A stretch of 45,929 nt of DNA from a virus, in the IMG/VR virus record IMGVR_UViG_3300037261_000065, positions 1 through 45,929 of that record. The stretch is one strand, 5' to 3'. The translations under genes and the position numbers were made by a program. Position 1 is the stretch's first letter, and each line of letters begins with the position of its first letter. Shown in pieces: positions 30,670 to 34,121 of this stretch. The notes beneath the pieces were generated by a model. It worked only from the letters and a program-made list of their open reading frames with translations. It ran no database searches and was not told the origin of the DNA.

Positions 30670-31146
30670 ATGTCAAACAAATATAAATTAACAAAAAATA
30701 CAGTTACTCATTGGTCTGGTAAAACTCTATTTCAAATAGAAGCGATTATTTCATTTGGTACAATTTCTAAAGGTGATTTAGGAGGATATATTGAAAAAGA
30801 AGAAAATCTATCACAGGTCTCTGGTAACGCATGGGTCTCTGGTAACGCATGGGTCTCTGGTAACGCATGGGTCTATGGTGACGCACAGGTCTCTGGTAAC
30901 GCATGGGTCTCTGGTAACGCATGGGTCTATGGTAAATTCTCTTTAACTCTCGGATATTTCTTTGGAATGAAATATAATAACGAAGAAATCAAAACATTTA
31001 AGACTGCCGAAGGAGAAGAGATAATTTATAAAGGTACTAATGCAAAAATCGAACCTACTACACCAGAAGTAAAAGAACCTTGTCTATCTGGTAAGGAAAT
31101 ATCTGTCACTCTCGACGGTAAGACATATATAGCGGTAATTAAATAA
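30670..31146 (+). CDS. Hexapeptide-repeat (beta-helix) phage protein
   Basis: 158 residues. N-terminal module (HWSGKTLFQIEAIISFGTIS then KGDLGGYIEKEENLSQ) typical of a widespread phage family, followed by seven copies of V-S/Y-G-N/D-A-W/Q that build a left-handed beta-helix, then a short C-terminal domain. Function of the family is unknown. The repeats are nearly identical at the DNA level. Confidence 0.7.
   Translation: MSNKYKLTKNTVTHWSGKTLFQIEAIISFGTISKGDLGGYIEKEENLSQVSGNAWVSGNAWVSGNAWVYGDAQVSGNAWVSGNAWVYGKFSLTLGYFFGMKYNNEEIKTFKTAEGEEIIYKGTNAKIEPTTPEVKEPCLSGKEISVTLDGKTYIAVIK
30816..30941 (+). repeat. 18-bp coding tandem repeat, about seven units
   Basis: Units based on GGTCTCTGGTAACGCATG occur head to tail; five are near identical and two carry TATGGT. 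Each codes one hexapeptide rung. Unit number could change by slippage without a frameshift. Confidence 0.85.
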
Positions 31147-31147
31147 C

Positions 31148-31510
31148 ATGATACAAGAAACACCCAACGGACAAACAAACTATTGCACACATCGAGATGA
31201 TAGTGATGTGGCTAAATGTAGTGTATGCCTAGGAAAAGATATATCAACAAATTTCTATCAAGTCGGACAGATAGTTAAATGCGGTCATTGTAGTTCAGAT
31301 TTTGTAACTGCTGATTGTGACTGTGTATGCCATAAAGATACAGAACTCAAAGAGACTTATGATAATGCAGTAGAAAAAGCTACGATAAAGTATCACTCTA
31401 CTTTCGTTAAGGAAGGTCTAGCTATTAACTTTACCCACGACCAAATCGACTTCCTCTGGGATTGGATTAACACATTAGCAGAAGAGCAGGTTAATAAGAA
31501 AATGAAATGA
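31148..31510 (+). CDS. Zinc-ribbon-type early protein
   Basis: 120 residues. Cys/His pairs at CTHRDDSDVAKCSVC, CGHC and CDCVCH suggest two zinc sites in the first half; the second half is helical (FTHDQIDFLWDWINTLAEEQ). Its stop overlaps the start of the next gene. May bind nucleic acid or protein; not recognised. Confidence 0.65.
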   Translation: MIQETPNGQTNYCTHRDDSDVAKCSVCLGKDISTNFYQVGQIVKCGHCSSDFVTADCDCVCHKDTELKETYDNAVEKATIKYHSTFVKEGLAINFTHDQIDFLWDWINTLAEEQVNKKMK

Positions 31511-32076
31511 AAAACATCGACACAACAAAATACTTCGTAATTGAAGATAAAGCAGGAGTAAAGACATCAAACATTTTTAAAGAGATGCAAAAGCTTTTTG
31601 ATGTATGGTCGTATTACGATGATACTCGACTAGATAACGATTTTCCAGCTCCTCAAAAGACAACAACACGATATTTCGAAAAAAATATTGAAGCCGATGA
31701 GGAGTTTAAAAATATGTCAGCTAATGATTTAGAGAGACAAGGAATCAAAGGAATTACACTTCGTGAACGCCTTCTTATGGAGATAGAGTATTTTAAAGAA
31801 ACTGGCGGTCATTTGGACATTGATAACATCACCCTCTGTAGCGGCTCGCGTAACTCGGACGGCAGCGTCCCGGGCGTGGGATGGTACGGCGACGACCGCA
31901 AGGTTTGCGTCGACTGGTATGGCCCGTCACGCTCCTACTTGAGCCTCCGCGCTCGTGCAGCGCAGTTTCTAACACTTGATTCTTCTTCCTTTAACCCTGT
32001 TCCTGAATTAACTATCGAATCCCTCCACCACAAAGTTGATATATTACTCGACCATTTTGGACTAAGGAATAAATAA
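31507..32076 (+). CDS. Protein with DGR-type variable region (1)
   Basis: 189 residues. The N-terminal ~110 residues are ordinary and AT-rich (TLRERLLMEIEYFKETGGHL). Residues ~112-153 form a GC-rich block (IDNITLCSGSRNSDGSVPGV onward, with W-Y-G-D-D, V-C-V-D-W-Y-G-P and S-L-R-A-R) in which most variable codons end in C. Proteins with the frame VPxVxW...VxVxWYxP...LRxRA are, as I recall, frequent in CPR genomes and their phages and look like diversity-generating retroelement targets. A short C-terminal helix follows. It overlaps the upstream gene by 4 bp and is followed 2 bp later by a second variable protein. No reverse transcriptase is encoded in this window. Confidence 0.6.
   Translation: MKNIDTTKYFVIEDKAGVKTSNIFKEMQKLFDVWSYYDDTRLDNDFPAPQKTTTRYFEKNIEADEEFKNMSANDLERQGIKGITLRERLLMEIEYFKETGGHLDIDNITLCSGSRNSDGSVPGVGWYGDDRKVCVDWYGPSRSYLSLRARAAQFLTLDSSSFNPVPELTIESLHHKVDILLDHFGLRNK
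31840..31965 (+). other. Candidate DGR variable region 1
   Basis: About 67% GC over 31841-31940 against about 35% in the 60 bp just upstream. Of 43 codons, 23 end in C, including AAC, GAC, GGC, TAC, CGC, TGC and TCC at positions that would be AAC in a template. Random replacement of template adenines produces exactly this NNC pattern. Confidence 0.55.
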
Positions 32077-32078
32077 CT

Positions 32079-32537
32079 ATGAAAACAATCTCACAACAAT
32101 TCAAAACAATCACTTCGTACCAAGGATATGACTTTAAAAAATGGTTTGGCGATATGCCCTATAAAAAAGAAACAACCAAGCTTTTTTCAAAGAAATTGCC
32201 ACGAAGTATGAATGACGAGGAAATCTTAAGGGAACTCAAGCCAACAGAAGTATCTCTTGGAGAAGTATTTAATTATCTAAAAAATGAAAAAGACCATTCT
32301 GTCCGGTGTTTGTTTTATGTAAAAGATAACGCTGGTGTGCTTCGCGCGGTCTACGTGCGCTGGTTCGTCGGCGGCTGGGACGTCTCTGCGTTCTCCGTCG
32401 AGGACCCGATCAGGTGGGGTGGTGGCCGCCAGATGTTCTCTCGCAATTTTGAAACTGAGACCCTTGAACACTCTGAACCTTTGACCCTTTGCCCGCATTG
32501 TAATAAAGAAATAGGAGTTAAGATTATAAAGAAATGA
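32079..32537 (+). CDS. Protein with DGR-type variable region (2)
   Basis: 152 residues. N-terminal ~85 residues are AT-rich coding sequence. Residues ~88-123 form a GC-rich block around RAVYVRWFVGGWDVSAFSVE and FSRN, with the frame RAVxVxW...WxVxAxSVexP..W...xxFSRN that I associate with variable proteins of CPR bacteria and their phages. It ends in a zinc-knuckle (CPHC). The block differs from that of the preceding protein, so two different templates would be needed. It starts 2 bp after the first variable gene. Confidence 0.6.
   Translation: MKTISQQFKTITSYQGYDFKKWFGDMPYKKETTKLFSKKLPRSMNDEEILRELKPTEVSLGEVFNYLKNEKDHSVRCLFYVKDNAGVLRAVYVRWFVGGWDVSAFSVEDPIRWGGGRQMFSRNFETETLEHSEPLTLCPHCNKEIGVKIIKK
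32340..32447 (+). other. Candidate DGR variable region 2
   Basis: About 67% GC over 32341-32440. Codons TAC, CGC, TTC, GTC, GGC, GGC, GAC, TTC, GAC, ATC, GGC and CGC alternate with fixed codons (GTC, TGG, GCG, TCC, CCG, CAG), as expected if AAC codons of a template were mutated at their adenines. Confidence 0.55.
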
Positions 32538-33476: not shown

Positions 33477-34121
33477 ATGAAAATAGAAAAAACTAATTTT
33501 AAAAATGAGGTTGTAACGGATTACACGGACAAAAATGGTAAAACAATCGCCCGTGTTATTTCAAGTGGTGATTCCCTTGCAGAAATCGAGGAAGTAGTAT
33601 TTAAAAATCATTTGCAACAACAGAGTATTAAAATCGAACGAAAATGGGCGATGCCCAACAAATGGACTTTCACGATACAACCGATAAAGGAACTTTTAAG
33701 CGAGGAAGTAATAAAAGGAATATGGGTTGACCCCTATTGTGGGCAGAATGGTTCAAAATATGCCGCAGTTACAAATGATTTGTCCCAAGGGGGAATGGAT
33801 GGAGTAGAGTTTTTAAAGAAACAAGAATCTAATTCATTTGACGGTGTATTACTTGACCCTCCGTATTCTCTCCGACAGGTTTCAGAACACTATAAAAAAG
33901 CAGGAATAAAAGTAACTGGGTGGCATACTTCTGCGGGTAATACTTCTGCTCTAAAAAATGAGGCGGGTCGGGTTATCAAAAAAGGTGGAAAAGTCATTTG
34001 CTTCGGTTGGAATACTATGGGTCTTGGAAAAAATCGCGGGTTTGAAATGACACGAATCCTACTCGTACCTCATGGCGGTAGTAAGAATGATACAATCGTA
34101 ACAGTAGAAATAAAGAAATAA
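33477..34121 (+). CDS. Adenine-specific DNA methyltransferase (DPPY type)
   Basis: 214 residues. DPPY at 127-130 (FDGVLLDPPYS) is the catalytic motif of N6-adenine or N4-cytosine methyltransferases; 'WVDPYCGQNGS' (83-93) is a degenerate AdoMet-binding motif I and 'IKKGGKVICFGWNT' a later strand of the fold. It probably modifies phage DNA to escape restriction. It precedes the structured RNA at 34122 with no gap. Confidence 0.75.
   Translation: MKIEKTNFKNEVVTDYTDKNGKTIARVISSGDSLAEIEEVVFKNHLQQQSIKIERKWAMPNKWTFTIQPIKELLSEEVIKGIWVDPYCGQNGSKYAAVTNDLSQGGMDGVEFLKKQESNSFDGVLLDPPYSLRQVSEHYKKAGIKVTGWHTSAGNTSALKNEAGRVIKKGGKVICFGWNTMGLGKNRGFEMTRILLVPHGGSKNDTIVTVEIKK

Follow-up and report, generated by a model that had tools for sequence, protein, structure and literature searches.

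Two variable regions on a phage contig as candidate remote targets of host diversity-generating retroelements

The DNA analysed here, hereafter the window, is a linear phage record of 45,929 bp from IMG/VR, which carries terminase, head-tail, tail-collar and primase-helicase genes. Its structural genes lie on the - strand; elsewhere on the contig, among replication-side genes of the + strand, two neighbouring genes, V1 and V2, each contain a G+C-rich block that we assign to a variable region (VR). The region comprises the following features, with the basis of each assignment in brackets.

31507..32076, + strand: V1 protein, 189 aa, with a predicted C-type-lectin-like domain (about residues 7-157) and a C-terminal helix (AlphaFold2, VIA-align, tree).
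31843..31962, + strand: VR1, the variable region of V1 (G+C and NNC peak; frame as in host VR/TR pairs; comparison with the TR of L013).
31965..32004, + strand: pyrimidine tract 3' of VR1 (TAACACTTGATTCTTCTTCCTTTAACCCTG), coding, similar to the one that follows host VRs.
32079..32537, + strand: V2 protein, 152 aa, the second variable protein (bacterial homologues with VR/TR pairs).
32325..32448, + strand: VR2, a variable region fitting the template repeat (TR) of bacterial genomes (comparison with the TRs of L157 and L158).
32458..32493, + strand: pyrimidine tract 3' of VR2 (ACCCTTGAACACTCTGAACCTTTGACCCTTTG), coding (periodicity at lags 8 and 7).

A sequence-only reading had proposed that the V1 gene harbours a variable block of the type made by diversity-generating retroelements (DGRs), recognizable as a GC-rich patch in an AT-rich gene, with more than half of its codons being NNC, a fixed frame of residues and a position in the middle of the protein. 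All four descriptors hold. G+C content reaches 68.3% over 31841-31960, the top 120-bp peak of the whole contig (z 5.0), versus 34.5% in the remainder of the ORF, and NNC codons account for 62.5% of the best 40-codon stretch, a maximum taken over all frames, as compared with 11.7% for eight large ORFs. Within the protein the block occupies residues 113-152, and its frame (VPxVxW...VxVxWYxP...LRxRA) recurs in dozens of homologues, which carry differing residues at the other positions, those supposed to vary. Neither V1 nor V2 scores above cut-off for any Pfam family, and PHROGs and NCBIfam likewise contain no family that covers either, so that no ordinary domain extends across the block. Going beyond that reading, the second-highest G+C peak of the contig, at 32325 (z 4.6; about 32.33-32.45 kb) in the next gene, proved to be a second VR with a different frame. 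Downstream of this VR pair, PADLOC gives the ORF at 33477-34121 a weak match (E 8e-6) to its models of type II DNA methyltransferases.

The nature of the two blocks emerges from bacterial loci. Homologous targets lie beside a TR, a reverse transcriptase (RT) and Avd at L013-L016, L020, L029, L031, L041 and L158, the last being a complete DGR with VR, TR, Avd and RT at a single locus. At the bacterial loci, the template copy is found about 340-520 bp past the VR, and RT (PF00078) and Avd (PF22296; NF033474 below its cut-off) adjoin several of the VR/TR pairs. In 14 such host pairs, all 242 mismatches fall on template A (242/424 A, 0/1161 other bases), the zero being partly a matter of construction since the stretches were bounded by the absence of non-A mismatches. 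A less biased base control, covering 246 strands, counted 60-bp near-repeats whose differences fall solely on one base of the downstream copy, and gave 39 for A, 3 for C and none for G or T. Templates of V1 type approximate GSRNSDGNVPxVNWNxxxKxNVNWYNPDNANDNLRAREVVS, in which Asn (AAY) occupies the sites of VR variation. Taken together, these observations support the assignment of the V1 and V2 blocks to DGR-type variable regions, each a mutagenized copy of a template repeat (120-124 bp), as had been supposed for V1.

Two further features of the bacterial genomes deserve mention. The genome that contains L008, one of the bacterial contigs with a V1 homologue, also carries at L011 another complete DGR (VR, TR, RT) with a third frame, and hence holds V1-type, V2-type and third-family members. 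Moreover, many bacterial V1-type VR loci (L049, L050, L053-L056 and others) have no TR in the surrounding 1.5 kb or so, a pattern suggesting that remote targets are frequent inside these genomes too.

When single proteins were searched against phage and viral collections, no relatives of V1 or V2 came up; these were found with frame patterns. The V1 pattern used for the first search (VPxVxW...R.V.VxWY) led to a further phage, L002/L004 (31 kb, 43% identical), and to the bacterial contigs L007 and L008, and a wider pattern applied later brought in the phage records L036, L037 and L038. From reading their translations, we take the neighbours on L008 to be a thioredoxin-reductase-like and an ftsZ-like gene. 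Profile searches detected the V1 family in 15 of 380 genomes of the phylum to which L008's genome belongs and in 60 of 397 of its order, and the V2 family in 112 of the 397 genomes of that order. Bacteria with V1 or V2 homologues have small genomes (0.4-2 Mb) and are taken to be Patescibacteria, a name based on genome size and on the clade described in the literature. Peptides chosen by profile and scanned against genome contigs gave no match, nor did VR2 and its template in the annotated phage collection; three V2-pattern matches in viral contigs were dismissed as chance rather than kinship. Near the V1 gene, both the window (30670-31146) and L004 (9505-10287) encode a beta-solenoid (YdcK-type) protein with repeats such as VSGNAWVYGDA, whose copies are far more numerous in L004.

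In a V1 tree built from non-VR columns, the window phage, L002, L037 and L038 form a clade (support 97/97), with which L036 groups without support. Outside the VR, codons for identical residues agree in just 29-42% within this clade. At template-Asn columns, C/T-ending codons make up 43 of 45 in the five phages versus 294 of 607 in the preceding gene parts (p 6e-11), an excess to which residue choice at these columns adds and which fits repeated rewriting in the phage lineages. Codon identity is likewise higher in the VR than in the N-terminal part (55% vs 36%), a difference that G+C bias confounds and that is no more than suggestive.

A near-identical template, with A where the block varies, was the partner that the sequence-only reading expected for VR1. 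No template copy exists on either strand of the window; a bacterial TR does fit the twin, VR2, and VR1 itself finds divergent TRs only. Over 124 bp, VR2 differs from the TR of L157 (genome G654, which also contains L086) at 22 of 34 template A positions and at 3 of 90 other bases (p 6e-13), and from the TR of L158 (genome G683, with L089) at 22/34 and 4/90 (p 4e-12). This fit is as clean as that of the bacterial VRs to their own TRs (23/34 A and 2/90 others in G654; 24/34 and 1/90 in G683). Both genomes belong to the same order as that of L008, and the fitting TRs sit in bacterial bins, one of them on a 649-kb contig. The similarity stops at both edges of the 124-bp stretch: outside it, DNA similarity between the phage V2 gene and its host counterpart is not significant, and outside the VR the V2 and G654 proteins share 23 of 73 residues (about 31%). 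At A positions changed in both, the phage VR agrees with the two host VRs at 9/18 and 10/20 (chance about 1/3), whereas the host VRs of G654 and G683 share the same base at 16 of 20. As the first of these values is near chance, VR2 is an independent copy and does not derive from either host VR. The 3' edge of VR2 is of VR type (CGCAATT) and not of TR type (CGAAACT).

VR1 is less clear-cut. The best of the divergent TRs found, that of L013, differs from it at 23 of 37 template A positions and 22 of 83 others (p 4e-4), such that no close donor TR for VR1 occurs among the sampled bacterial genomes, and one of its codons, GGA, is at odds with an AAC origin. VR2 is accordingly a near-copy of a TR with its differences at template A, as is characteristic of a DGR target, while the A bias of VR1 is seen against divergent templates only.

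Structural prediction bears on V1 more than on V2. The AlphaFold2 model of V1, computed from the window protein together with the phage and L007/L008 rows, has a pLDDT of 86.6. Foldseek found no match for it in PDB or BFVD at E <= 0.001; VIA-align aligned it with EgtB (Z 8.5), the lectin BDCA2 (6.5), Mtd, the tropism determinant of BPP-1 (6.3), and TaqVP (5.7). Z values of 6-8 are middling alone, and the telling point is that two solved DGR targets, Mtd and TaqVP, are in the list. V1 is predicted to fold like a C-type lectin, as Mtd and TaqVP do, its variable residues being carried by the kind of scaffold known from DGR targets. V2 alone gave a model with pLDDT 42, which was not used for fold; a lectin fold may be presumed for it as well. 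In the V1 model the VR closes the lectin domain and an extra C-terminal part follows. Nearly all bacterial V1 relatives, like the phage versions in L036 and L037, terminate directly after the VR, so that the mid-protein position of VR1 is explained by an added C-terminal part that these lack. An origin of this part from a frameshifted host stop was considered and rejected, as phages L002 and L038 likewise have tails past the VR. Both proteins are encoded in the early region and, by eye, have no hydrophobic N-terminus; they are most likely non-structural binding proteins that act in phage-host conflict.

A further shared element lies directly 3' of the VRs. Host V1-type VRs are followed by a pyrimidine tract (near ACCCTTGTTCCTTTT) with a period of 7-8 bp (lag 7 z 9.9, lag 8 z 6.3; 43 loci). 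This periodicity is gone 3' of the TRs (z -0.2) and 60-100 bp further on (z -0.6), and stands at z 0.1 in a control of sequences 3' of 106 other ORFs. Host V2-type VRs give z 6.5 at lag 8, versus -3.1 in the flanks of V2-type TRs. The element thus recurs in two target families, for example at L015, L058 and L075 and in both window tracts. The phage seems to have retained it: the five phage V1 copies pooled reach z 2.9 and the window V2 tract 3.8 at lag 8 and 2.3 at lag 7, while periodicity of the window V1 tract alone is not significant (p 0.17). The tract could be a target-recognition element of the DGR. A strong hairpin is found 3' of most host VRs and not in the phage; it was set aside as a DGR element, being often trailed by a T-run and perhaps simply a terminator.

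The machinery itself is another matter. Neither an RVT_1 match nor a second V1-type, TR-like match was found in the window or the four other V1-bearing phage records (about 142 kb in five, all linear and possibly incomplete); none of them, as far as these contigs extend, shows the RT and TR of a complete phage-encoded cassette of BPP-1 type. The absence of DGR machinery from the phage contig and the occurrence in bacterial genomes of a template fitting the twin are two points that the sequence-only reading had not anticipated. As to the host, the TerL of the window phage has a relative with 71% identity on a 29-kb contig (L120/L121, G388:C17) that was assigned to the bin of a 0.9-Mb genome from the same order; such placements of phage contigs may be in error. 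The two phages are broadly collinear over the structural half, another structural protein being 84% identical, and the early half is missing in G388:C17. As for G654 and G683, they indicate at most what kind of host may be involved.

We consider it probable that the phage-borne V1 and V2 genes are remote targets diversified in trans by a host DGR. The phage contig would supply the targets only, i.e., the ORFs at 31507-32076 and 32079-32537, and the DGRs of small-genome hosts would provide RT, Avd and template RNA during infection. The host TR would be copied into a cDNA in which template adenines are randomized, and this cDNA would then replace the matching stretch of the phage gene, a process that may still be active. 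The VR-type 3' end, together with the adjoining tract, probably marks the phage copy as the recipient, and the products would be lectin-fold binding proteins. Arguments for this model include the clean fit of VR2 to a bacterial TR, the complete DGR at L158, the five phage records free of RT and TR-like matches, and the VR-type 3' edge kept by VR2. The base control, the phage V1 clade with its C/T codon excess, the VR-only tract and the phage relative binned with G388 point in the same direction. Against it stand the linear, possibly incomplete phage records, the missing close donor TR and the GGA codon of VR1, the missing hairpin and the weak tract at VR1 of the window. With somewhat less assurance, we favour the broader proposal that phages of patescibacterial hosts keep RT-less, tract-marked targets for two host DGR families, whose RT diversifies early phage proteins in trans.

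Other scenarios compete with this reading. The phage could possess a complete DGR of its own on a part of the genome outside the contig, the VR2-TR fit then reflecting DGR exchange between phages and hosts. The record is indeed linear and of uncertain completeness, and a second, distal VR has been described for phage-encoded DGRs (PMC12629997), but the lack of RT or TR-like matches across all five VR-bearing records and the location of the VR2-fitting TRs in bacterial bins, including the 649-kb contig, make this unlikely. A slightly lower probability is given to ordinary homologous recombination with bacterial VR genes, without mutagenic retrohoming into phage DNA. Host VRs have a frame in common with the phage copy and might recombine with it, an unsampled host VR could have been the donor, and the pattern relative to the TR would be identical; yet the similarity is confined to the VR/TR stretch, with flanks devoid of homology for crossovers, and the changed A positions match the two host VRs only about half of the time.

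Finally, VR1 and VR2 might be fossils of an ancient capture, former DGR targets in which rewriting has ceased and which persist as invariant binding surfaces. The contig without machinery, the lack of a close TR for VR1 in the sample and the three non-A changes of VR2 would suit such a history, which we nevertheless regard as very improbable: VR2 is identical to a bacterial TR at 87 of 90 non-A bases when the remainder of the gene has diverged past DNA recognition, and the template-Asn codons of the phages are still nearly all C/T-ending.

Diversification in trans by the host would mean that a phage appears to use a host mutator on non-structural proteins, which are distant homologues of the variable proteins of the host. 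If so, DGRs would be shared ground in phage-host conflict, surveys keyed to RT would be expected to miss such targets, and the tract would be a candidate VR-only target-site element for this group of DGRs, of which we know of no experimental study. Matching phage VRs to host templates at non-A positions would also offer a testable phage-host link. Our search of the open-access literature yielded no account of a host template serving VRs of a phage.

The phage DGRs known so far bring their own machinery, and it is mostly tail proteins that they diversify. Bordetella phage BPP-1, with its own RT, Avd and TR, varies the tail protein Mtd. Like Mtd, V1 is a phage gene product whose VR, directed by template A, closes a C-type-lectin fold, here a predicted one; unlike in BPP-1, the targets lie in a replication-side operon and the machinery is missing from the contig. 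In gut prophages, a second, distal VR is served by an RT encoded by the prophage itself (PMC12629997); the resemblance lies in a phage VR outside the tail module and near counter-defence genes, and the difference in the RT, which the window contig lacks. Among cellular systems, Roux et al. (2021) described a Patescibacteria-restricted clade (DGR clade 2) whose targets have no known domains, and stated that remote targets would go undetected in their survey (PMC8144416). Small-genome hosts, domain-less targets and VR families that also occur beside TR, Avd and RT recall this clade; there, however, the DGRs are cell-encoded and the VR adjoins the RT, whereas the contig that bears the present VRs is that of a phage and has neither RT nor TR. 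Nanoarchaeota harbour target-only partial DGRs in cell genomes that also hold full DGRs (PMC4372165), which similarly combine VR genes lacking an adjacent RT with A-directed changes, although those targets reside in the cell genome and ours are phage-borne. The cyanobacterial DGRs, with remote VR genes whose VR is near the gene 3' end and with TR and VR in one genome (PMC7517822), likewise separate VR genes from an RT and TR located elsewhere; in the present case, the separation runs between genomes, the VR being carried by a phage and the template by bacteria.
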